From assembly GCF_011067135.1 (NCBI RefSeq), contig NZ_JAAMOW010000001.1, positions 62,001-126,000 of the forward strand: DNA of 64,000 bases. The letters are read 5' to 3'. Made by a program: the position numbers and the translations under genes. Origin of the DNA: Solimonas terrae (GTDB lineage Bacteria > Pseudomonadota > Gammaproteobacteria > Nevskiales > Nevskiaceae). The notes beneath the pieces were generated by a model, which saw nothing but the letters and a program-made list of their open reading frames with translations, was not told the origin of the DNA and did not search any database. Position 1 is the first letter of the stretch. Each line of letters begins with the position of its first letter. This document shows positions 8,336 through 18,496 of this stretch, one piece after another.

Positions 8336-8376
8336 TTGATGAGGATCAAGTCCGATCCGGCTTTGACCGGCATCAA
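8336..8376 (-). promoter_or_regulatory. two tandem FNR/Anr boxes
   Basis: TTGAT-GAGG-ATCAA at 8336-8349 and TTGAC-CGGC-ATCAA at 8363-8376, centres 27 bases apart. The nearer one is centred about 60 bases before the ATG of the fusion gene, with room for a start site at -41.5. The second box could add repression or cooperative activation. The rest of 8284-8606 shows no gene; the divergent 8607 gene could also use these sites. Confidence 0.75.
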
Positions 8377-8606
8377 TGCACGGCCGCGGCGCGGCTGTTG
8401 CACTGACGCCGCTGTCAGCCGGCGGATCGCGTCATGCAAGGCGTCGATGCGAAACCGCAAGGCGTGCGTGCGGCCCGACGAAGGCCTGCGTCAACAGCTT
8501 GCCGTGCGTGCCGTCAGCCCGCACCGAAGCATGCGGGCGCGGCATCCGGATGGCGCAGCGCGACGTCGGTGGACGGCTCCATTGCCGCGACCAGGAATGC
8601 ATCGAC

Positions 8607-8963
8607 ATGAGCAAGAACTATCCCGACATCATTCGTTCGACATCGGCGCAGATGGCCGAATTGCGGACCGGCATTCCCGAGGTCAGCAAGGGATTCACGT
8701 CGCTCGCGCAGGCGGCGACCCGCGACGGAGCGCTGGATCGCAAGACCAAGGAGCTGATCGCGCTCGCGCTCGGCGTCGCGGCACATTGCGACGCCTGCAT
8801 CGGGTTCCACGTACAGGCGCTGGTGCGTGCGAACGTCACTCGCGCCGAGCTTGAAGAAGCACTCGGTGTGGCGATCTACATGGGCGGCGGACCGTCGCTG
8901 ATGTACGCCGCCGACGCGCTTGCTGCCTACGAACAGTTCGCACCGACGGCGTCGGACACCTGA
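8607..8963 (+). CDS. carboxymuconolactone decarboxylase / AhpD-like protein
   Basis: 118 residues of the CMD/AhpD fold. The redox or catalytic motif is HCDACIGFHVQAL, a CxxC with the family's downstream His. The AGGAA upstream of the ATG at 8607 supports the start. Members are either gamma-carboxymuconolactone decarboxylases or AhpD-like peroxidase partners; the CxxC and small size, and the lack of aromatic-degradation genes nearby, favour an AhpD-like redox role. The gene is convergent with the YeeE pair. Confidence 0.85.
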   Translation: MSKNYPDIIRSTSAQMAELRTGIPEVSKGFTSLAQAATRDGALDRKTKELIALALGVAAHCDACIGFHVQALVRANVTRAELEEALGVAIYMGGGPSLMYAADALAAYEQFAPTASDT

Positions 8964-9000
8964 GTGCCACCGGCACGCACCGGGCCGCGCGGTGTGATGC

Positions 9001-9408
9001 TCAGCGCATCAGACGCCGCTGCAGCCACATGCCGGCGACCATGGCGACGCAGAACAGCAGGGTCGCCGGATGCAGGGCCGACAGTGCCGCGATCGCGGGG
9101 CCGGGGCAGTAGCCGGCGATGCCCCAGCCGACGCCGAACAGCACGGCGCCGACGATCAGCCGCTTGTCGATGTCATTGCGCGTCGGAATCTGGAATGCGA
9201 GATCGAACAGCGGTCGGTCGCGGCGGCGCGCCAGCGCGAACGCCGGGAATGCCACCAGCAGGCCGCCGCCCATGACGAATGCCAGGCTGGGATCCCAGAC
9301 GCCGGCGAGATCGAGAAAGCCGAGCACTTTCTGCGGCTGCACCATGCCGCCGATCGTCAGGCCGGCACCGAACAGCAGACCCGCCAGCAGGCCGATGAGA
9401 TTTTTCAT
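9001..9408 (-). CDS. YeeE/YedE-family membrane protein, C-terminal half type (DUF6691)
   Basis: 135 residues, about four membrane helices, with the family patterns LLFGAGLTIGGMVQP near the N-terminus and GWGIAGYCPGPA near residue 95. YeeE/YedE proteins import thiosulfate or handle other sulfur compounds; many bacteria encode them as two half-size genes, as here. The ATG overlaps the stop of the partner gene by four bases. It is the last gene of the cytochrome bd operon, tying that operon to sulfur chemistry. Confidence 0.85.
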   Translation of the reverse strand: MKNLIGLLAGLLFGAGLTIGGMVQPQKVLGFLDLAGVWDPSLAFVMGGGLLVAFPAFALARRRDRPLFDLAFQIPTRNDIDKRLIVGAVLFGVGWGIAGYCPGPAIAALSALHPATLLFCVAMVAGMWLQRRLMR

Positions 9409-9845
9409 GCGAGCCCCGGCAGATGGCGGATCAGATAGACGGTGACGAAGCCGGCGGCCATGAAGGTCGCCGTCGCCAGCAGGGAGCGTGGTGACAGGCG
9501 GCTGATGCCGCAGATGCCGTGACCGGAAGTGCAGCCGCTGCCGAGCCGGGTGCCGAAGCCGACCAGCAGGCCGGCGACCACGATCATCCCGGCATTGACG
9601 GTCGGGGCTGCAGCGCGAAGTTCGGGTCGCAGCCAGCCGACGATCAGCGGCGCGAGTATCAGGCCCAGCACGAACAGCGCGCGCCAGCCGCGGTCGGGGC
9701 CGCGCTCGAACAGCAGATTGCCGGCGATGCCGCTGATGCCGGCGATGCGCCCGCTGCCGATCAGCAGCAGCGCGGCCGACAGGCCGATCAGCAGTCCGCC
9801 GGCAAGGCCGAGCAGCCAGCTGTAAGGGTCGATGATGATCTGCAT
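9405..9845 (-). CDS. YeeE/YedE-family membrane protein, N-terminal half type
   Basis: 146 residues from the ATG at 9845, about four membrane helices. [11 protein letters not shown] and the signature [19 protein letters not shown] contain the cysteines thought to pass sulfur species in YeeE. An in-frame ATG far upstream would overlap ybgE and is not used here. It lies 34 bases after ybgE and overlaps the following half-gene, so both halves are probably translated together as one transporter. Confidence 0.87.
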
Positions 9846-9879
9846 TCGCGGTTCTCCGGAGCCGGCGCCAGTATGGGGC

Positions 9880-10173
9880 TCAACGAGGGGTGAGGAACAG
9901 GCGCAGCGCGGCCATCGACAGTGCCAGTGCACAGGCGCGGCCCGAGAGCAGAACGCGCGCCGGACGATACCGGGGCACGAAGCCGACGCCACGCACGATG
10001 CCGGCCGCCATGGCCCAGCCCGCCAGAGTCGCCCCCAGATGATCGGCGCGTCCGTCGCCGTCGATCAGCACGCGCGGATCGGCGGTCAGACCGAACATCA
10101 GGGCCAGACCGACGAGCAGGGGCAGCCATGCCAGCGTGGTGGGCGTGGCCGAAGGCGGCAATGCCGTCTTCAT
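9880..10173 (-). CDS. ybgE: YbgE-type cyd operon protein
   Basis: A 97-residue membrane protein with about three hydrophobic segments and the YbgE-type features DPRVLIDGDGRADH and GVGFVPRYRPAR. YbgE follows cydX in many cyd operons; its function is unknown and it is dispensable in E. coli. Its ATG overlaps the cydX stop (ATGA). Identification rests on both sequence pattern and position. Confidence 0.8.
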   Translation of the reverse strand: MKTALPPSATPTTLAWLPLLVGLALMFGLTADPRVLIDGDGRADHLGATLAGWAMAAGIVRGVGFVPRYRPARVLLSGRACALALSMAALRLFLTPR

Positions 10174-10292
10174 GGCGCGGCGGAATCCTCGTCGGCTGCG
10201 CGGCGCGCAACTTCGTTCTCGCCCCAGATGGCATTGAGGATCGCGAGCAGAACCGCGAAGCCGACACCCAGTACCCAGGTCAGATACCACAT
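10170..10292 (-). CDS. cydX: CydX, small subunit of cytochrome bd oxidase
   Basis: A 40-residue protein, MWYLTWVLGVGFAVLLAILN then AIWGE and a charged tail. One membrane helix begins at the N-terminus, and the Trp-Tyr start and conserved Glu after the helix are the marks of CydX/CbdX, which stabilises the haem site of CydAB. GGAGA stands upstream of the ATG. It follows cydB by 16 bases and overlaps ybgE by four, the usual cydABX-ybgE order. Confidence 0.93.
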   Translation of the reverse strand: MWYLTWVLGVGFAVLLAILNAIWGENEVARRAADEDSAAP

Positions 10293-10308
10293 GCTTGTTC
10301 TCCGGTTT

Positions 10309-11445
10309 TCAGTACGCGCTGTGCGTATTGCGTTCGATGTCGGTCGCCGTCACCTTGCCGCGCATCACGCGGTAGGCCCAGGCGGTATAGAACACGATCA
10401 GCGGCATGAAGATCAGCACTGCCCACAGCATGATGGACAGCGTCAGCCGGCTCGAGGTGCTGTCCCAGACCGTCAGACTCGCATCCGGCTGTGACGACGA
10501 CGGCATCAGGAACGGGAACATCGAAACGCCGGCGGTGCCGATCACGCCGGCCAAAGCCAGAGCCGAGGCCACGAACGCGATGCCGCTGCGGCCGGCGCGC
10601 AACAGCAGCAGCGCGGCAATCGTGCCCAGATAGGCGAGCATCGGCACCAGCATCGTCGCCGGCACGAGCCGGTAGTTGGCGAACCAGCCGCCGCTGCGTC
10701 GCACGACGGTCTTGGCGAGCGGATCGGGCAGGGCCGACGGATCGACGATCGACGTGATGGCATAGCCGTCGATGCGCAGCAGGCACAGGCCGGCGGCCGT
10801 GAACCCGAGCAGCAGCACGAGACCGGCGCCACAGGCGGCGCGGCGTGCACGTGCGGCGATCACGCCTTCCGTGCGATGCGTCAGATAGATCGCGCCGTGC
10901 AGCAGGATCATCGCACTGCTGACCACGCCGCAGAGCAGGGCAAACGGGTTCAGCAGCTGCCAGAACGAACCGGTATAGGTGGACACGAGATTGTCGTCGA
11001 ACCGGAACGGCACGCCCTGCAGCAGATTGCCGAACGCCACGCCGAAGATCAGCGGCGGCACCGTGCCGCCGACGAACAGGCCCCAGTCCCAGGTCGAGCG
11101 CCAGCGTGGATCGTGGATCTTGCTGCGGTAGTCGAAGCCGACCGGGCGGAAGAACAGCGCCCAGAGCACCGCCAGCATCGCCCAGTAGAAGCCGGAGAAC
11201 GCGGTCGCGTAGATCAGTGGCCAGGCGGCGAAGATCGCGCCGCCGCCGGTGATGAACCAGACCTGGTTGCCGTCCCAGTGGGGGCCGACGGTATTGATCA
11301 CCACACGGCGCTCGATGTCGTTGCGGCCGACAAAGGGCAGCAGGCTGCCGACGCCCATGTCGTGTCCGTCCATCACCGCGAAGCCGACCAGCAGGACGCC
11401 GACCAGCAGCCACCAGATCAGTTTGAGAACTTCGTAGTCGAGCAT
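10309..11445 (-). CDS. cydB: cytochrome bd ubiquinol oxidase subunit II
   Basis: 378 residues, close to the E. coli length, with about eight or nine membrane helices. The N-terminus (YEVLKLIWWLLVGVLLVGFA) and WDGNQVWFITGGGAIFAAWP are CydB hallmarks. Together with CydA it forms the quinol oxidase that reduces oxygen to water with high affinity and is insensitive to sulfide. AGGA precedes the ATG; cydA ends 12 bases upstream. Confidence 0.97.
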   Translation of the reverse strand: MLDYEVLKLIWWLLVGVLLVGFAVMDGHDMGVGSLLPFVGRNDIERRVVINTVGPHWDGNQVWFITGGGAIFAAWPLIYATAFSGFYWAMLAVLWALFFRPVGFDYRSKIHDPRWRSTWDWGLFVGGTVPPLIFGVAFGNLLQGVPFRFDDNLVSTYTGSFWQLLNPFALLCGVVSSAMILLHGAIYLTHRTEGVIAARARRAACGAGLVLLLGFTAAGLCLLRIDGYAITSIVDPSALPDPLAKTVVRRSGGWFANYRLVPATMLVPMLAYLGTIAALLLLRAGRSGIAFVASALALAGVIGTAGVSMFPFLMPSSSQPDASLTVWDSTSSRLTLSIMLWAVLIFMPLIVFYTAWAYRVMRGKVTATDIERNTHSAY

Positions 11446-11457
11446 GGTTTCAGTCCT

Positions 11458-13017
11458 TCAATGTTGCGCGGCGGCTTCGTCGGCGTAGCGGCCGGTGCCG
11501 AGACTGCCCGGACCCCGGCGAGCGAAACGCACCATCAGGTACATCTCGACGATCAGCAGCGCGGTATAGAAACCGACGAAGCCGGCCAGCGAGCCGTAAA
11601 GGCTCGACACGCTCAGGGTCGAGACCGACAGATTGGTCGGCAGCACGCCGTAGATCGTCCAGGGCTGGCGACCATATTCGGCAACGAACCAGCCGAGCTC
11701 GCAGGCAAGCCACGGCAGCGGCAGCGACCACAGCGCCCACTTCAGCAACCAGCGCCGACGCTCGCACTGCATGCGCAGCGTCGACAGCGAGGCCAGTGCG
11801 AACAGCGCCAGCATCAGGAAGCCGATGCCGACCATCGCGCGAAATCCCCAGAACATCGGTGTCACGCGCGGGATGGTGTCGTTGACGGCGCGCTCGATCA
11901 GCTCCGGCGTGACCTGATCGAAATCGGTGACGTACTTGCGCAGCAGCAGGCCGAAGCCGAGATCGGCCTTGTGCTGTTCGAAGATCGTCCGCGCATCGGC
12001 ATCCTGGCGATTCGCACGCAGGCGGCCGAGCGCCTTCGCCGCCTCGATGCCGGACACGATGCGCACCCGGTTCTTCGCCTTGATTTCGAGAATGCCGGGA
12101 ATCTGCAGGCTCACCGAGCGCGTGCCGATCAGACCCATGACCCAGGGAATCTCGACGGCCCAGTCATTCTTCTGTTGTGCTTCGTTCGGCCAGGCGAGCA
12201 GATTGAACGAGGCCGGCGCCGGCTCCGTTTCCCACATGGACTCGATCGCCGCCATCTTGGTCTGCTGCGCCTCGCCCACCGTGTAGCCGGACTCGTCGCC
12301 GAGCACGATCACGGAACAGACCGATGCCAGGCCAAAGGCGGCGGCGATGCGGAAGCTGCGCCTGGCGAACTCGACATCGCGGCCGCGAAGCAGATACCAG
12401 GCCGAGATCGACAGCACGAACATCGCGCCGGTCACGTAACCGGCGGACACGGTGTGCACGAACTTCGCCTGCGCGATCGGATTGAAGATCACCGACCAGA
12501 AGTCGGTCAGTTCCATGCGCATGGTTTCGTAGTTGAACTCGGCGCCGACCGGGTTCTGCATCCAGCCGTTGGCGATCAGGATCCACAGTGCCGACAGATT
12601 GGTGCCGATCGCCATCAGGATGGTCACCAGCAGGTGTTGCTGCCTGGAGAGCCGGTCCCAGGCAAAGAAGAACAGGCCGATGAAGGTGGATTCGAGAAAG
12701 AACGCCATCAGCCCCTCGATTGCCAGGGGTGCACCGAAGATGTCGCCGACGTAATGCGAGTAGTACGCCCAGTTCGTGCCGAACTGGAATTCCAGCGTGA
12801 TGCCGGTGGTGACGCCCAGCGCGAAGTTGATGCCGAACAGCTTGCCCCAGAAGCGGGTCATGTCCTTGTAGACGAGCTTGCCGGTCATCACGTAAACCGA
12901 CTCCATGATGACCAGCAGCCAGACCATGCCCAGCGTCAGCGGCACGAACAGGAAGTGGTACATCGCGGTCGCGGCGAACTGCAGGCGCGAAAGGTCGACG
13001 AGGTGGGTGCTGATCAT
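11458..13017 (-). CDS. cydA: cytochrome bd ubiquinol oxidase subunit I
   Basis: 519 residues, nearly the E. coli length. It carries the three haems. Visible landmarks: the N-terminal LSRLQFAATAMYHFLFVPLT with the haem b595 His, GTNWAYYSHYVGDIFGAPLA, the quinol-loop segment AKNRVRIVSGIEAAKAL characteristic of the long Q-loop type, and CELGWFVAEYGRQPWTIYG. The start at 13017 overlaps the cydP stop by four bases. Likely promoters lie upstream of cydP: an FNR box and a sigma54-type element. Confidence 0.97.
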   Translation of the reverse strand: MISTHLVDLSRLQFAATAMYHFLFVPLTLGMVWLLVIMESVYVMTGKLVYKDMTRFWGKLFGINFALGVTTGITLEFQFGTNWAYYSHYVGDIFGAPLAIEGLMAFFLESTFIGLFFFAWDRLSRQQHLLVTILMAIGTNLSALWILIANGWMQNPVGAEFNYETMRMELTDFWSVIFNPIAQAKFVHTVSAGYVTGAMFVLSISAWYLLRGRDVEFARRSFRIAAAFGLASVCSVIVLGDESGYTVGEAQQTKMAAIESMWETEPAPASFNLLAWPNEAQQKNDWAVEIPWVMGLIGTRSVSLQIPGILEIKAKNRVRIVSGIEAAKALGRLRANRQDADARTIFEQHKADLGFGLLLRKYVTDFDQVTPELIERAVNDTIPRVTPMFWGFRAMVGIGFLMLALFALASLSTLRMQCERRRWLLKWALWSLPLPWLACELGWFVAEYGRQPWTIYGVLPTNLSVSTLSVSSLYGSLAGFVGFYTALLIVEMYLMVRFARRGPGSLGTGRYADEAAAQH

Positions 13018-13235
13018 GGCTGAGGCTCGGTAAGGGGCGCAGGAGAAGCCGGTCCGCCGAGCACGCTTTCGCCGGCGCGGTGACCGTCGATCCGGATCCC
13101 GTGAGGGCGCACGAACGCGAACCACAGCAGGACGATGGCGAGCAACTTGACGAGCAGGACGACGGTGATGCCGCGCCGCAGCCGATCGCTGCGATGGGTC
13201 CGTGCGGCCGGGCATGGTGGAGAGGGGGTGTTCAC
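13014..13235 (-). CDS. cydP: CydP-like small subunit/assembly protein
   Basis: 73 residues from a GTG at 13235: a basic stretch, one membrane helix (GITVVLLVKLLAIVLLWFAF) and a short periplasmic tail. This matches the small CydP protein found before cydA in beta- and gammaproteobacteria. Longer in-frame starts at 13382 and 13358 exist, but they would put the FNR box at 13294-13307 inside the gene, so the shorter GTG start is preferred; it has no clear ribosome site. The stop overlaps the cydA start. Confidence 0.75.
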   Translation of the reverse strand: MNTPSPPCPAARTHRSDRLRRGITVVLLVKLLAIVLLWFAFVRPHGIRIDGHRAGESVLGGPASPAPLTEPQP

Positions 13236-13293
13236 GGCGCGGACGAGGGTGGCGGGCAGGCCTGCATCGTCGGACAGCGGCCGCCCGTACGCC

Positions 13294-13307
13294 TTGACGA
13301 CGGTCAA
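13294..13307 (-). promoter_or_regulatory. FNR/Anr-type box before the cyd operon
   Basis: TTGAC-GACG-GTCAA, symmetric, centred 65 bases before the proposed cydP GTG. Low-oxygen activation of cydAB by FNR/Anr is common in pseudomonads. Confidence 0.65.
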
Positions 13308-13388
13308 GCCCTGGTCCGTGAGGAGCGGCAATCGGGTTTTGCGGGTGCTTGGCGGCATGGCATCTGGATCGCGTGACGCCACGGCTTG

Positions 13389-13404
13389 ATCAGGTTCCGT
13401 GCCA
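13389..13404 (-). promoter_or_regulatory. sigma54-type -24/-12 promoter of the cyd operon
   Basis: On the minus strand this reads TGGCACG-GAAC-CTGAT. The -24 part is perfect; the -12 part has GA instead of GC, the same deviation as in the promoter at 15023-15038 on the other side of fisR. It is followed downstream by the FNR box, so the operon may have two promoters. Confidence 0.5.
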
Positions 13405-13410
13405 AGCCGG

Positions 13411-13470
13411 AATTATTGAAATTAAACTTTATAATTCAAATAATTAAATTTGATACTTTAAGTGAATTCA
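13411..13470. promoter_or_regulatory. AT-rich stretch with IHF-like site
   Basis: About 60 bases of strongly AT-rich DNA in an otherwise high-GC region, between the putative enhancer (13483-13527) and the -24 element. ATTCAA-ATAA-TTA at 13434-13446 is one base off the IHF core WATCAA-N4-TTR. IHF often bends DNA at sigma54 promoters. Confidence 0.4.
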
Positions 13471-13482
13471 AAAGCCTTGAGG

Positions 13483-13527
13483 CTGCCATTGGCAGAGTTT
13501 GGCAGACGACTGCCAGTACGCTGGCAG
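13483..13527. promoter_or_regulatory. cluster of TGCCA/TGGCA inverted repeats, putative FisR enhancer
   Basis: CTGCCATTGGCAG (13483-13495) is a 13-base palindrome. It is followed by TGGCAG-ACGA-CTGCCA (13500-13515) and CTGCCAG-TACG-CTGGCAG (13510-13527), giving five half-sites. The 13-base palindrome recurs with 11 of 13 bases identical at 14934-14946 before the persulfide dioxygenase gene. It sits 12 bases past the fisR stop, about 86 bases from the -24 element of the cyd operon. Confidence 0.6.
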
Positions 13528-13538
13528 CAATGTCGATC

Positions 13539-14852
13539 TCAGGCGAGGCCGAGCTCGCGCAAGCGCCGGTACAGGGTCCGCTCGCTGAGTCCGAGATGAT
13601 GAGCGAGTTCGCTGCGCGTGCCTTTGAACACCGCCAGCGCGTGCGCGAGTTGCGCGCGTTCGTCGCGCCGCTGCCGGCGACCGCCAGGCGCGGCAGGCGG
13701 ACCGGCGGCCGCGCTGTGCAGCTCGGCTGGCAGGTGGCCGGCATGAATCACGCCGTCGTCGGCGAACAGCCGCGCGCGTTCCAGAATGTTGCGCAGTTCG
13801 CGGACGTTGCCGGGATAGCGGTACTGAGCCAGCAGGCGCATTGCTTCGTCGTCGACGCGTGGCGCCTGATTGCCGGCGATGCGCTGCAGCAGACTCTCGA
13901 CCAGCAGCGGCAAATCATCGGCCCGTTCGCGCAGCGCCGGCAAATGCACCGGAAAGGCGCTGATGCGGTAGTAGAGATCCTGGCGAAAGCTGCCCTCGGC
14001 AACCATCGCTGCCAGCGGTTTGTGGGTTGCCGAGACGAGGCGGAAGTCGGCTCGCAGCGGTTCGACGCCGCCGACCCGCCGAAACGTGCCGGATTCGATC
14101 AGGCGCAGCAGCTTGACCTGCATCGCCAGCGGCACGTCGCCGATTTCGTCGAGAAACAGCGTGCCGCCGTGCGCGGTCTCGGCGAGGCCGATCTTGCGCT
14201 GCGTGGCGCCGGTGAACGCGCCTTTCTCGTAGCCGAACAGCTCGCTTTCGAACAGGGTTTCCGTGAGGCCGGTGCAGTCGACCACGACCAGCGGTCCGCG
14301 CGCGCGCGGGCTGCTCTCGTGCAGCGCGCGCGCGAACAGTTCCTTGCCGGTGCCGGATTCGCCCTGCAGCAGTACCGGAATCTGCGCCGGCGCCGCGCGT
14401 TGCAATGCGGCCAGCGCTGCCTTGAAGGCAGGAGCCCGGCCGACCAGGCCCTGGCGCTGCGGCTGCGCCGCCGCCGCCGTGACACTGCTCAGCCGCTCGA
14501 CGTAGGCCGCCACCTCGCCGTGTTCGTCGAGGATCGGTCGCAGTTCGACATCGACGTGCTCGGGGCCGCGTGGCGTGTGGTGGATGTGCAGCACGCGATC
14601 GGGTGCACGGGTTTCGCTGGCCTTGCGCATCGGGCAGTGCTCGCCGGCCTGATCGCAGGGCACGGCGTATTGATGCGAAACGCGATAGCACTTGCTGCCG
14701 ATCGGCGCCTGCTCGGCCGCACCGAACTGCCGACGGTACGCGTTGTTGGCGGCGAGGATGTTGTAGTCGGTGTCGAGCACGATGGTCGGCTGGACTTCGT
14801 GTTCGAGATACGAGATCAGCGCCTGCACCTGTGCCGAGGAAGGAAGGGTCAT
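13539..14852 (-). CDS. fisR: FisR-type sigma54 activator sensing sulfane sulfur
   Basis: A 437-residue bacterial enhancer-binding protein: N-terminal PAS-like sensor (about 1-125), AAA+ domain (about 135-370) with Walker [15 protein letters not shown] sigma54-contact loop and FLDEIGD, then a Fis-type helix-turn-helix ([20 protein letters not shown]). Cysteines at 55, 66 and 73 have the same spacing (11 and 7) as C53, C64 and C71 of Cupriavidus FisR, which react with polysulfide and switch on sulfide oxidation. It is divergent from pdo-sqr, as in known FisR loci. GGAG precedes the ATG. The target operons inferred here are pdo-sqr-tauE and, less conventionally, cyd. Confidence 0.88.
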
Positions 14853-14900
14853 CGCGTCGTGCTCCGGAGTCTGCGGGACAGCTTAGTCGCCCCCGACGGC

Positions 14901-14946
14901 GCTGCCAAATGCTGCCATGTGCTGCCATCGTCGCCGCCATTGTCAG
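14901..14946. promoter_or_regulatory. GCTGCCA triple repeat plus palindrome, putative FisR enhancer
   Basis: GCTGCCA occurs at 14901, 14911 and 14921, exactly one helical turn (10 bases) apart. It is followed by CCGCCATTGTCAG at 14934-14946, an 11/13 match to the palindrome on the other side of fisR. The centre of that palindrome is about 84 bases from the -24 element at 15024. An AT-rich stretch (about 14966-15002) lies between, as in the cyd arrangement. Confidence 0.6.
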
Positions 14947-15022
14947 TCACGGCGGATCGGTCTTCCAAAGATAAATATCATTAAAACAAGGTCTTGAATT
15001 TCTCTTCCGGACGAGTTCCGGC

Positions 15023-15038
15023 TGGCACGCGTCTTGAG
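15023..15038 (+). promoter_or_regulatory. sigma54-type -24/-12 promoter of pdo-sqr-tauE
   Basis: TGGCACG-CGTC-TTGAG, 4-base spacing as in the sigma54 consensus, with GA for GC in the -12 part. Transcription would start near 15049, about 50 bases before the pdo ATG. Confidence 0.7.
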
Positions 15039-15099: not shown

Positions 15100-15984
15100 A
15101 TGTCCGAGACCAGTCAGATCCAGCTCGAAGCCTTTTTCGATCCGGCGACGTGGACGATCAGCTACCTGTTGCTCGATCGCGGCAGCATGCAATGCGCCTT
15201 GATCGACAGCGTGCTTGATTACGACCCGAAGTCCGGGCGCACGCGGCATGATTCGGCGGACCGCCTGATCACGCGCGTCCGCGAACTCGGTGCCAGCGTG
15301 CAATGGCTGCTCGAAACGCATGTGCATGCCGATCACCTGTCGGCGGCCGGGTATCTCAAGGAGCAGGTCGGCGGCAAGCTCGCGATCGGCGCGCACATCA
15401 CGGCCGTGCAGGACGTGTTCGGCAAGCTGTTCAATGCCGGCGCCGGATTCGCCCACGACGGCAGCCAGTTCGACACGCTGCTCGCGGACGGCGAGACCTT
15501 CAGCATCGGTCATCTCGAGGCGCGCGCCCTGCATACACCCGGTCATACACCGGCCTGCATGACCTACGTGGTCGAGGACGGCGACGAGACGATCGCCTTC
15601 GTCGGCGACACGCTGTTCATGCCGGATTACGGCACCGCACGCTGCGATTTTCCCGGTGGCGACGCGCGCACCCTGTATCGCTCGATCAACAAGGTGCTCA
15701 GCCTGCCGCCGCAGACGCGGCTGTACATGTGCCACGACTATCAGCCGGGCGGCCGCGATGTGGCCTACGAAACCACCGTCGCCGAGCAGCGCGCGAACAA
15801 CATCCATGTGCGCGACGGCATCAGCGAGGAAGGCTTCGTGACCATGCGCCGGGCGCGCGACGCGACGCTGGAAATGCCGGTACTGATCCTGCCGTCCGTG
15901 CAGGTCAACATGCGTGCCGGCCATCTGCCGGACCCCGATGACAACGGCGTCCGCTATCTGAAGATTCCGCTCAACGCGATTTGA
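15100..15984 (+). CDS. pdo: persulfide dioxygenase (ETHE1/Blh-type MBL protein)
   Basis: A 294-residue metallo-beta-lactamase-fold enzyme that oxidises glutathione persulfide to sulfite. THVHADHLSAA is the metal motif as found in ETHE1-type dioxygenases; HTPGHTPACM and FVGDTLFMPDYGTARCDFPGG are further family segments, and the single non-haem iron uses two His and one Asp from these. The start at 15100 has GGAG nine bases before it; an earlier in-frame ATG would overlap the promoter. First gene of a FisR-type operon, 15 bases before sqr. Confidence 0.92.
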   Translation: MSETSQIQLEAFFDPATWTISYLLLDRGSMQCALIDSVLDYDPKSGRTRHDSADRLITRVRELGASVQWLLETHVHADHLSAAGYLKEQVGGKLAIGAHITAVQDVFGKLFNAGAGFAHDGSQFDTLLADGETFSIGHLEARALHTPGHTPACMTYVVEDGDETIAFVGDTLFMPDYGTARCDFPGGDARTLYRSINKVLSLPPQTRLYMCHDYQPGGRDVAYETTVAEQRANNIHVRDGISEEGFVTMRRARDATLEMPVLILPSVQVNMRAGHLPDPDDNGVRYLKIPLNAI

Positions 15985-15999
15985 GCGCTGGAGATCCGC

Positions 16000-17667
16000 A
16001 TGCAGGTTCGCAAGCTTGGCGACGATCTGTCGGTCGCCCCGCAGATTGCCGTCGCCGATATTGCCGCACTCGCGGCGCAGGGGTATCGCAGTCTGATCTG
16101 CAATCGTCCGGACGGCGAGGGGGCCGACCAGCCGCTGTATGAAGAGATCGCCCGCGCCGCGGAGGCAGCGGGACTGAAGCCTGTCTATCTGCCGATCGAG
16201 TCCGGCAAGGTCGACGACGCCGCTGCGCAGCGCTTCGGCGAGTTGCTGTGCGAACTGCCGAAACCGGTGTTCGCGTATTGCCGCACGGGTACGCGGTCGG
16301 CAACGCTGTGGGCGCTGGCGCAAGTGCAACGCCGGCCGCTGCCGGAAATCCTCGACATCGCGCGCGTCGCCGGCTACGACCTCGCCGCCGTTGCGCGCCG
16401 CATCGCCAACGGCGGACGTACACCAGTCGATCGTGTCGATGCCCGCCACCAGATCGTCATCATCGGTGGTGGCGCGGCCGGCATCGCGACCGCGGCGAGC
16501 CTGCTGTCGCGCGACGCGAAGCTGGACATCGCCATCATCGATCCGGCGGACGTGCACTACTACCAGCCGGGCTGGACGCTGGTCGGCGCCGGTGTGTTCA
16601 AACCGTCGCATACGGCGCGCACGATGGCTTCCCTGATTCCGCGCGGCGTGCACTGGATCAAGGCCGCGGTCGCCGCCTTCGAGCCGCGCGCCAACGCCGT
16701 CGTGCTCGATGGCTGCCGTGTCGTCGGCTACGATCAGCTCGTCATCTGCCCCGGACTCAAGCTCAACTGGGCCGGCATCGAAGGACTCGACGAAACGCTC
16801 GGTCGCAACGGCGTGACTTCGAACTACCGCTACGATCTCGCGCCATACACCTGGGATCTGGTGCAGAAGCTGCGCGAAGGGCGGGCGTTGTTTACCCAGC
16901 CGCCGATGCCGATCAAATGTGCCGGGGCGCCGCAGAAGGCGATGTATCTGTCGTGCGATCACTGGCGTCGGGAGGGTGTGCTCGCGAAGATCGAGCCGGA
17001 GTTCTACAACGCCGGCGGCGTGCTGTTCGGCGTCGCCGACTACGTGCCCGCATTGATGCACTACGTCGAGCGCTATGGCATCGATCTGAACTTCGGGCAC
17101 ACCTTGGTGAAGGTCGACGGCGCGCGCCGGATCGCGAGTTTTGCACGCAACCGGACTGACGGGACTCGCGAGACCGTCGAACGCGAATTCGATTTCCTGC
17201 ATGTGGTGCCGCCGCAGGTCGCGCCGGATTTCCTGCGTGTCAGCCCGTTTGCCGACGCGGCCGGCTGGGTCGACGTCGATCCGGCCAGCTTGCGGCATCG
17301 TCAGTTCGGCAACGTGCATGCGCTGGGCGATTGCACCAATACCAGCAATGCCAAGACCGCCGCCGCCGCTCGCAAGCAGGCGCCCGTCGTTGCGCACAAT
17401 GTGCTGGCCGCGCTTGGCCGCGCACGCACCGAGGCGCGCTACGACGGTTACGGTTCATGCCCGCTGACTGTCGAGCGCGGCAAGATCGTGCTGGCCGAAT
17501 TCACCTACGGCGGCAAGCTGGCGCCGAGCTTCCCGAGTTGGTTGCTCGACGGCCGCAAGCCGACCCGTGCCGCCTGGTGGCTGAAGGAACGCGTCCTGCC
17601 GCCGCTGTACTGGCAGGCCATGCTCAAGGGTCGCGAGTGGATGGCGCAGCCGGAACTGGCGGACTGA
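16000..17667 (+). CDS. sqr: DUF442-sulfide:quinone oxidoreductase fusion
   Basis: 555 residues. The first 110 or so are a DUF442 (phosphatase/rhodanese-like) domain with FAYCRTGTRSATLW, a C-x5-R loop near residue 93. The rest is a type II (mitochondrial-like) SQR: FAD-binding VIIGGGAAGIATAASLL, a catalytic cysteine in IKCAGAPQKAMYLS and a second in HALGDCTNTSNAKTAAA. It oxidises sulfide to sulfane sulfur and reduces quinone at the membrane. The DUF442 part may pass persulfide to an acceptor; it is more often fused to the dioxygenase. GGAGA precedes the ATG. The electrons could enter the quinone pool used by cytochrome bd. Confidence 0.92.
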   Translation: MQVRKLGDDLSVAPQIAVADIAALAAQGYRSLICNRPDGEGADQPLYEEIARAAEAAGLKPVYLPIESGKVDDAAAQRFGELLCELPKPVFAYCRTGTRSATLWALAQVQRRPLPEILDIARVAGYDLAAVARRIANGGRTPVDRVDARHQIVIIGGGAAGIATAASLLSRDAKLDIAIIDPADVHYYQPGWTLVGAGVFKPSHTARTMASLIPRGVHWIKAAVAAFEPRANAVVLDGCRVVGYDQLVICPGLKLNWAGIEGLDETLGRNGVTSNYRYDLAPYTWDLVQKLREGRALFTQPPMPIKCAGAPQKAMYLSCDHWRREGVLAKIEPEFYNAGGVLFGVADYVPALMHYVERYGIDLNFGHTLVKVDGARRIASFARNRTDGTRETVEREFDFLHVVPPQVAPDFLRVSPFADAAGWVDVDPASLRHRQFGNVHALGDCTNTSNAKTAAAARKQAPVVAHNVLAALGRARTEARYDGYGSCPLTVERGKIVLAEFTYGGKLAPSFPSWLLDGRKPTRAAWWLKERVLPPLYWQAMLKGREWMAQPELAD

Positions 17668-17671
17668 AGCC

Positions 17672-18496
17672 ATGAACGAACACCTGCTGCTCGGTTCCGC
17701 GCTCGGCGCCGTGGTCGGCGCCATCCTCGCGTTGACCGGTGCCGGCGGCGGCATCCTCGCGGTGCCGCTGCTGGTGTTCGGACTCGGTCTGTCGATGGCG
17801 CAGGCGGCGCCGGTCGGCCTGCTCGCCGTCGGCCTCAGTGCCGCGCTCGGTGCCGTGCTCGGCCTGCGCGAAGGCATCGTGCGCTATCGCGCGGCCGGTT
17901 TCATTGCCGGCATCGGCATCGTGTTCGCGCCGCTCGGTTTGTGGATCGCGCATCGCGTGCCGAATGCGCCGCTGGCGCTGGCCTTCGCGGCCTTGCTGAT
18001 CTACGCGATGCAGCGCATGTACCGCCAGGCCCGCCGCGAACTGCGCGAAGGTCCGCAGCCGCCGCGCACCGAAGTCCTGCCCTGCGTGATCAATCCCGGC
18101 CGCGGCCGCCTGCGCTGGACCTTGCCGTGCGCGCGCTCGCTGGCGCTGACCGGCGTCATATCCGGCGTGTTGTCCGGTCTGCTCGGCGTCGGCGGCGGCT
18201 TCGTCATCGTGCCGGCGCTGAGCCGCTATACCGATCTCGACATGAAGAGCATCGTCGCGACTTCGCTCGCCGTCATCGCCCTGGTGTCGGCCGGCAGCGT
18301 CGCCGCCGCGAGTATCGGCGGTGTCATGCACTGGGCGGTCGGCGTGCCGTTTGCCGGTGGTGCGGTCGCCGGCGTGCTCGGTGGGCGTCTGTTCGCGGCG
18401 CGGCTCGCCGGGCCGCGGCTGCAGCAGGCATTCGCCGGCGTCGGTTCGATCGCCGCGCTGCTGCTGATCGTGCGCGGCGTGCACGGCGCCTTCTGA
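17672..18496 (+). CDS. TauE/SafE-family sulfite/anion exporter
   Basis: A 274-residue membrane protein of about eight helices with the two TauE repeats: LTGAGGGILAVPLLVFGLGL near the start and LLGVGGGFVIVPAL near residue 175. The family exports sulfite, sulfoacetate or similar anions. It starts four bases after sqr, so it probably removes the sulfite made by persulfide dioxygenase. Confidence 0.9.
   Translation: MNEHLLLGSALGAVVGAILALTGAGGGILAVPLLVFGLGLSMAQAAPVGLLAVGLSAALGAVLGLREGIVRYRAAGFIAGIGIVFAPLGLWIAHRVPNAPLALAFAALLIYAMQRMYRQARRELREGPQPPRTEVLPCVINPGRGRLRWTLPCARSLALTGVISGVLSGLLGVGGGFVIVPALSRYTDLDMKSIVATSLAVIALVSAGSVAAASIGGVMHWAVGVPFAGGAVAGVLGGRLFAARLAGPRLQQAFAGVGSIAALLLIVRGVHGAF

Follow-up and report, generated by a model that had tools for sequence, protein, structure and literature searches.

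Promoters of the sigma54-IHF-UAS type, as known for NifA, NorR and similar activators, are composed of upstream sites, an IHF bend site and a -24/-12 promoter. The FisR-pdo-sqr regulon of Cupriavidus pinatubonensis JMP134 was reportedly described by Li et al. in 2017. According to the accessible parts of the papers cited in the following, FisR senses sulfane sulfur by three cysteines, whereupon its ATPase activity is raised (PMC9774590, PMC12170894). Cytochrome bd withstands sulfide (PMC8148161, PMC7315123), and a sulfide-resistant cytochrome bd is induced by sulfide in several bacteria (PMC7315123). In A. baumannii cydAB is induced by Na2S and a link between SQR and CydAB via the quinone is predicted by the authors (Walsh et al. 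2020, PMC7315123), while the accessible text of that paper contains no report of a FisR dependence of A. baumannii cydAB. The mechanism by which sulfide induces cytochrome bd in E. coli was stated to be unknown before YgaV was proposed (PMC9774250). The cydA2B2 genes of Cupriavidus necator (H16_B1461) show low expression in the wild type and are activated by an upstream point mutation (PMC10164946). No statement on FisR control of a bd oxidase was found in the accessible portions of the open-licence literature, in agreement with a preliminary description of the DNA studied here, which had regarded a link between FisR and cyd as undescribed. In the locus reported below, fisR is located between two operons, pdo-sqr-tauE and cydPABX, both of which are very probably activated by FisR, as judged from sequence comparison.

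Gene organization of the fisR locus

The window, i.e. the whole stretch of 64,000 nucleotides that was analysed, belongs to a genome of 4.42 Mb. Leftwards on its minus strand fisR is followed by cydP, cydA, cydB and cydX, while on the other side fisR adjoins the divergent pdo-sqr genes, with pdo, sqr and tauE running rightwards on the plus strand:

10170..10292, minus strand: cydX (TIGR02106 above cut-off)
10309..11445, minus strand: cydB (TIGR00203 above cut-off)
11458..13020, minus strand: cydA, cytochrome bd oxidase subunit I (Pfam Cyt_bd_oxida_I)
13014..13382, minus strand: cydP frame (NCBIfam NF045611, 34.3 bits versus a cut-off of 29.6)
13539..14852, minus strand: fisR, sigma54 enhancer-binding activator (Pfam Sigma54_activat, PAS_4, HTH_8)
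15100..15984, plus strand: pdo, persulfide dioxygenase-like, metallo-beta-lactamase fold (best NCBIfam match below its cut-off)
16000..17667, plus strand: sqr, sulfide:quinone oxidoreductase-like, with an N-terminal sulfurtransferase/BLH-type domain
17672..18496, plus strand: tauE, sulfite exporter family (Pfam TauE)

The order fisR-pdo-sqr is found in 82 of 100 loci, a set which includes the best 80 of at least 589 listed. NCBIfam cut-offs are passed by CydB, CydX and CydP, the matches of CydA and PDO lying below theirs, and Pfam backs CydA, TauE, the fold of PDO and the domains of FisR. All of cydA, cydB and cydX are present with open frames; the start codon of cydP is uncertain, the CydP match covering the second half of the frame. 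FisR combines a PAS-like N-terminal sensor, a sigma54-contacting AAA+ domain (PF00158) with a GAFTGA motif read in the translation, and a Fis-type HTH (PF02954). Its sensor displays the arrangement C-x10-C-x6-C, the three cysteines of which are invariant across 14 aligned sensor domains and which we take to be C53, C64 and C71 of the Cupriavidus protein. The genome further contains two sigma54 genes, three genes of the HU/IHF family and a single CydA-like match, namely the cydA beside fisR, hence FisR control would govern the only bd oxidase of the organism.

Half-site arrays and predicted sigma54 promoters

On both sides of fisR a palindrome and a -24/-12 element had been noticed in the preliminary description, and all four were found again at their positions, the palindromes being embedded in longer arrays:

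13404-13390, minus strand: predicted sigma54 promoter of cydPABX, TGGCACGGAACCTGA
13483-13495: palindrome on the cyd side, CTGCCATTGGCAG
13483..13527, minus strand: candidate upstream activating array on the cyd side, five CTGCCA/TGGCAG half-sites at 13483, 13490, 13500, 13510 and 13522
14902..14946, plus strand: candidate upstream activating array on the pdo side, CTGCCA at 14902, 14912 and 14922, CCGCCA at 14934, then TTGTCAG
14934-14946: palindrome on the pdo side, CCGCCATTGTCAG
15023-15037, plus strand: predicted sigma54 promoter of pdo-sqr-tauE, TGGCACGCGTCTTGA

At the level of the sequence, one predicted promoter indeed faces pdo-sqr-tauE and the other cydP-A-B-X, as had been proposed. 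The start site of cydPABX would lie at about 13378 by counting from its predicted promoter. Counted from the coordinates, the palindrome centre is 86 bases from the -24 GG on the cyd side and 84 bases on the pdo side, which reproduces the 84-86 bases given earlier for the distance to TGGCACG.

Taken singly, palindrome and promoter are weak; what exceeds chance is the array together with its conservation. The palindrome pattern yields three matches, two of which are both strands of one site, versus 1.38 expected, and 17 of 100 shuffles reach three. TGGCACG-N5-TGM likewise gives three matches versus 0.65 expected, a number reached by four of 100 shuffles. When up to two mismatches are allowed, matches to the plain sigma54 consensus are as frequent as chance predicts (38 versus 37.49 expected), and this consensus was rejected as stand-alone evidence. 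By comparison, the gap on the cyd side holds five half-sites versus a mean of 0.2 in 300 dinucleotide shuffles (p=0.003, the floor of this test), and a promoter matrix built from 58 distinct 19-mers of fisR 5'-side promoters of genomes other than that of the window arrives at the same -24/-12 element on the cyd side (score 13.3, p=0.017). The role of enhancer that had been assigned to the palindrome has to be revised: it is present on both sides but forms one part of a CTGCCA/TGGCAG array, and the single palindrome, being near chance when taken alone, was dropped in favor of the half-site array, which explains more.

Within the whole genome the pattern CTGCCAN{2,9}CTGCCAN{2,9}CTGCCA occurs once, on the pdo side, and CTGYCAN{2,14}CTGYCAN{0,12}TGRCAG once, on the cyd side, while the reversed-pattern controls for both arrays have no match in the whole genome. 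Both patterns were written after the arrays had been seen, therefore these counts demonstrate specificity and not independent discovery. They also bear on the identity of the binding protein, as the genome contains, besides FisR, ten activator-like matches, any of which might bind the arrays in place of FisR. Such a replacement is most improbable, however, given that both arrays flank fisR, that the searched patterns are found nowhere else in the genome and that similar arrays lie beside fisR in other genera.

The -12 element

Both predicted promoters show GG at -24 and the spacing of the 15-base sigma54 core, with GA at -12 on both sides of fisR in place of the usual GC. The latter had been pointed out as a deviation, and it is one shared by the group: TTGA terminates 68 of the 90 matches to TGGCAY-N6-TG located 5' of fisR, the remainder being eight TTGC, seven TTGT and seven others. 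These 90 matches stem from 88 of 100 loci, and 12 of the 100 have no match to this pattern on the fisR 5' side, the set including the best 80 of at least 589 listed; the loci are mostly from Pseudomonas, and TG is fixed by the pattern while the final base is free. In view of this group-wide TTGA majority, GA at -12 of the predicted FisR promoters is a signature common to Pseudomonas, Cupriavidus and the family of the window. The idea that GA marks a weak or broken promoter was rejected, as GA is conserved. Among the more distant loci (loci are denoted by L and a number), TTGC is found in L037-L039, L125, L128, L134, L135 and L136, ATGC in L133, TTGA in L139 and TTGT in L041 and L149.

AT-rich spacer and IHF-like sites

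The AT-rich stretch that had been described between palindrome and promoter was recovered: the left (cyd-side) spacer has a GC content of 24%, versus 67% for the window, and the 16 of 63,923 78-mers of the window that are as low in GC all lie in this spacer. Each spacer harbors an IHF-like site:

13434..13446, plus strand: IHF-like site of the cyd-side spacer, ATTCAAATAATTA, differing from WATCAANNNNTTR at one position, 29 bp upstream of the -24 element of cyd
14984..14996, plus strand: IHF-like site of the pdo-side spacer, AAACAAGGTCTTG, one mismatch, 26 bp upstream of the -24 element

A search with YAANNNNTTGATW, allowing up to two mismatches, covered 17 chosen fisR 3'-side regions having an array or a promoter. 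An IHF-like site ends 27-29 bp upstream of the -24 element in 15 of them, the offset being 28 bp in 11, 29 bp in three (the window included) and 27 bp in one; L025 and L032 are without such a site at 27-29 bp. Eleven sites at one offset compare with at most three in 500 shuffled sets, a comparison that ignores kinship. On the pdo side the picture is more varied. Among 20 chosen regions from outside Pseudomonas a forward site is found at 16 bp in six and at 26-28 bp in seven (26 bp in the window), that of L030 is at 15 bp, and L023, L024, L026, L028, L031 and L034 lack an IHF-like site at 16 or 26-28 bp. With up to one mismatch, an IHF-like site is present in 30% of 79 pdo-side spacers, mostly from Pseudomonas, versus 13 of 16 on the 3' side. 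Owing to this difference and to the fixed offset, the predicted IHF-like site is firmly associated with the fisR 3' promoter and less so with the pdo-side promoter.

Conservation of the array with an oxidase

The strongest evidence for the proposed FisR-cyd link is provided by comparison across genomes. In 100 genomes searched, that of the window included, fisR was detected at E 1e-95 or better in 20, and the flanks of the other 19 were examined. Seven of the 14 fisR loci in the family of the window (L023-L036) carry cydABX 3' of fisR and four another bd oxidase with 28-36% identity to CydA/CydB. This second type has a 445-residue subunit I in L026, where it was tested and matched bd subunits I and II in Pfam; no NCBIfam name was obtained for the L026 pair, and the label cioAB-like used here refers to length and low identity. 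Judged by gene content, two types of bd oxidase occupy the 3' slot of FisR. The cioAB-like type is divergent from fisR in L037-L039, as is cydPABX in L041, and no oxidase is located beside fisR in L034, L035, L036 and L040.

A scan of named genomes added 80 loci, the best 80 of at least 589 listed, and 99 of the 100 loci, these 80 and others, were scored on the 3' side (L112 was left out, its flank being too short). In this set, including the best 80 of at least 589, the 3' side holds an oxidase in 20 loci, a sulfur gene in five and neither in 74; at least three half-sites not more than 110 bases from the fisR stop are found in 16/20, 3/5 and 0/74 of these, respectively, three-half-site clusters within 400 bases in 16/20, 3/5 and 1/74, and a promoter score of at least 12 within 260 bases in 14/20, 1/5 and 1/74. 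After removal of L043, L089 and L116, which are repeats of L023, L027 and L032, arrays are left in 13 and promoters in 11 of 17 oxidase loci, L118 being counted among the 17 with a cydB remnant only. The Fisher value for array versus oxidase is 1e-14, which ignores kinship and is not readable as a probability; the 74 loci without a recognised gene are mostly from Pseudomonas and thus not independent. Array, IHF-like site and promoter together precede cydABX or cioAB-like genes in further members of the family of the window, in Pseudomonas L054 and in the Betaproteobacteria L103 and L120. A low matrix score was obtained for L024, L054 and L120, the TGGCAY core of which is followed by C at -12 when inspected by eye; the matrix was trained mostly on TTGA. 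L029 combines two strict half-sites near fisR with a good promoter.

Within Cupriavidus the full arrangement is found in C. laharis (L103), where fisR is followed by array, promoter, a cydP-like start (by eye), cydABX and tauE. In C. pinatubonensis HN-2 (L114) array and promoter are followed by what looks by eye like a short stub of cydP, terminated by a stop, and then by tauE, in C. basilensis (L118) a cydP-like start runs into a cydB end (by eye), again followed by tauE, and C. metallidurans (L189) displays array, promoter and tauE. The FisR model species, in its strain HN-2, has accordingly kept a predicted second FisR promoter without an oxidase beside it, and the cydP-like stubs suggest that the oxidase was lost there rather than gained later.

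The array 3' of fisR might alternatively be a leftover or belong to another, former operon, with cyd as a passenger. In L035, L036, L114 and L189 it precedes tauE or pdo-type genes and no oxidase, as this would predict, and in Noviherbaspirillum autotrophicum (L093), which belongs to the 74 loci with no recognised 3' gene, array and promoter lie more than 90 bases out and precede two genes whose products were named by eye as an iron-sulfur protein of the Rieske type and a CcoG-like protein. Against this, the cydP-like stubs of L114 and L118 stand at the promoter, with the cydB end in L118 as further trace of an oxidase that looks lost, the array accompanies 13 of the 17 distinct oxidase loci, and fisR is repeatedly found divergent from cyd or cio in other families. 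Altogether, a passenger role of cyd is very unlikely, and a function of the array in driving the oxidase genes is preferred.

Exceptions and possible oxygen control

In L028 and L031, both from the genus of the window, and in Pseudomonas L057, cyd is kept after fisR and the array is absent. The gap between fisR and cyd of these three loci contains an FNR-like TTGATN4ATCAW box. Such boxes are not exclusive of the array, as L030 has a perfect one, downstream of the promoter, together with an array; less strict FNR-like boxes are present in L023, L024 and the window. These boxes, together with a sigma70-like site facing cyd in the spacer of the window (13439-13412, 9/12 matches), would be compatible with cyd being transcribed from a sigma70 promoter within the AT-rich stretch that responds mainly to oxygen, through FNR/ANR or through a two-component system, and to which FisR adds little. 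Between fisR and the cydP frame of the window, however, there is no FNR-like box with up to two mismatches; the nearest one (13294-13307, two mismatches) is located inside the cydP frame, although cydP may start further down. Moreover, the array and the IHF-like site keep a fixed layout with respect to the -24 element that FNR would not need. Predominant oxygen control is therefore unlikely, and FisR is retained as the probable activator of cydPABX.

Divergent arrangements in a wider survey

A class-level survey comprised 370 genomes drawn evenly, the class as defined by the tool possibly including Betaproteobacteria, and the sensor domain was detected at E 1e-15 in 78 of them. Flanks were inspected for the best 60 of 102 places, several of which are on short contigs; in some cases the sensor domain may belong to a paralogue. 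In seven of these best 60 (L125, L128, L134, L135, L139, L149 and L154) cydAB is divergent from fisR, and in two (L124 and L136) a cioAB-like type is near fisR and not divergent. TGGCAY-N6-TG faces cyd or cio on the fisR 5' side in L125, L128, L134, L135, L139, L149, L037-L039 and L041, and is absent from the fisR 5'-side stretch read in L154; in L125, L134 and L135 other genes stand between promoter and cydA. Most of the divergent loci of this survey have either no CTGCCA array or a sparse one, only L139 having three CTGCCA. On a plasmid of Pseudoalteromonas piscicida fisR is divergent from cydABX as well; the promoter pattern is not matched there. At least five changes of the oxidase label on starred branches are required by a quick tree built from 55 FisR rows, and a test on independent pairs gave a median p of 0.25 for five pairs, which are too few. 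Long-branch warnings concern L039-L041 and others, and the placement of those rows was consequently not used.

Proposed mechanism

Upon oxidation of sulfide, sulfane sulfur would build up and react with the three sensor cysteines of FisR, which would then hydrolyse ATP. Bound to the two half-site arrays, FisR would make contact with sigma54 RNA polymerase at either promoter across a spacer bent by IHF. From one promoter PDO, SQR and TauE would be produced, by which sulfur is oxidised and exported and the electrons of SQR are passed onto quinone; from the other promoter CydPABX would be produced, a quinol oxidase that should be poorly inhibited by sulfide. As SQR feeds quinone and the bd oxidase oxidises quinol, co-induction would close the electron path, and SQR-derived quinol could still be reoxidised by CydPABX while sulfide-sensitive oxidases are inhibited. 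We infer the binding of FisR, the dependence on FisR, sigma54 and IHF, and the induction of cyd in this organism. The control of cytochrome bd by FisR, as put forward in the preliminary description, is supported at the sequence level by the single-copy array patterns, by arrays in 13/17 oxidase loci versus 0/74 and by the divergent pairs.

By such a direct route, the protein that senses what sulfide oxidation yields would induce both the oxidation enzymes and the oxidase taking their electrons. The locus predicts which bacteria have the FisR-cyd link, and the candidate FisR site, consisting of half-site array, IHF-like site and TTGA at -12, may be used to seek FisR targets elsewhere. It is rather probable that bd oxidases driven by FisR commonly take part in the sulfide defence of Gammaproteobacteria and of some Betaproteobacteria, the type of oxidase (cydABX or cioAB-like) and the gene order varying while FisR-sigma54 control is kept. 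On this reading the arrangement went unnoticed since in the model species the oxidase genes next to fisR were lost and the promoter was kept.

Comparison with known systems

The predicted layout of upstream sites, IHF bend site and -24/-12 promoter is that of NifA/NorR-type promoters, from which the FisR group differs by CTGCCA arrays about 10 bp apart and by a -12 element that is mostly TTGA instead of TTGC. The nearest precedent, by another route, is YgaV of E. coli, a homologue of SqrR/BigR which, according to the accessible text, likewise is a sulfide-responsive regulator affecting the expression of cydAB; unlike FisR it is a 99-residue protein of the SqrR/BigR type acting on about 150 genes and not a sigma54 activator encoded beside the oxidase (PMC9774250, PMC11858517). 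CioAB of Pseudomonas aeruginosa resembles the oxidases considered here as a sulfide-tolerant bd-type oxidase; the accessible parts of that paper do not mention FisR (PMC10968556), whereas cioAB-like oxidases are located in the FisR slot of four relatives. The closest systems are the FisR regulons themselves. As far as the sources could be consulted, that of A. baumannii shares with the present locus the FisR activator, a divergent pdo-sqr operon and a sigma54 promoter, and that of C. pinatubonensis JMP134 the FisR activator and a sigma54 promoter; in contrast to the proposal made here, no FisR-controlled bd oxidase was found described for either in the same sources. The extension of the known FisR regulon to a new kind of target, predicted from the sequences compared, is well supported.

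Genes in or next to the sulfide and cyd operons

In the window, the operons on the two sides of fisR, the gene of the sulfane-sulfur-sensing sigma54 activator, include or adjoin the following features:

16000-17667: SQR with an N-terminal BLH/TIGR01244-type sulfurtransferase domain
9004-9845, minus strand as cydX and downstream of it: two halves, one of the Sulf_transp and one of the DUF6691 type, together a YeeE/TsuA-like pair

The Sulf_transp/DUF6691 pair, which follows cydX in the same-family relative L023 as well, may be part of the cyd transcript.

Position of the cydP start

In five of the 15 regions listed, namely the fisR loci L024, L033, L054, L103 (C. laharis) and L120, the putative cydP ATG, with starts judged by eye, lies exactly 13 bases past the -12 base of the predicted sigma54 promoter, so that the cydP start would coincide with the predicted transcription start. 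The spacing suggests that the cydP mRNA is possibly leaderless at these five loci. By eye, the ATG of the cydP stub in L114 (Cupriavidus pinatubonensis HN-2) is likewise found 13 bases past the -12 base.

FNR-like sites and sigma54 genes

FNR-like sites (TTGATN4ATCAA, up to two mismatches) number 23 in the window versus 7.75 expected, a threefold excess reached by none of 100 shuffles. Examples are:

2474-2487: FNR-like site
8336-8349: FNR-like site

The loci L028 and L031, which share the genus code and the gene order of the window, harbor an FNR-like box in the fisR-cydP gap, and the FisR array of CTGCCA/TGGCAG half-sites is absent from this gap in both. In L028 and L031, cyd may thus have been rewired so that it responds to oxygen instead of sulfide. 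In the more distant fisR loci L037, L133, L149 and L190 the half-site seems, by eye, to be TGTCA rather than TGCCA. The Solimonas terrae genome contains two rpoN (sigma54) genes (G000:C16:294089 and G000:C13:530487), the second with another activator gene within about 1 kb.

Arrays and promoters outside an intact cyd operon

On the 3′ side of fisR in Noviherbaspirillum autotrophicum (L093, approximately 8400-10650) an array and a predicted TGGCACGCATGTTGC promoter are followed, by eye, by genes for a Rieske-type and a CcoG-like protein, which would perhaps represent a further respiratory arm of FisR. In C. basilensis (L118) and C. pinatubonensis (L114) a FisR-type array and a predicted promoter are kept ahead of apparent cydP/cydB remnants, followed by tauE; the species in which FisR was defined, or a close relative, thus appears to have lost its cyd operon at this place.
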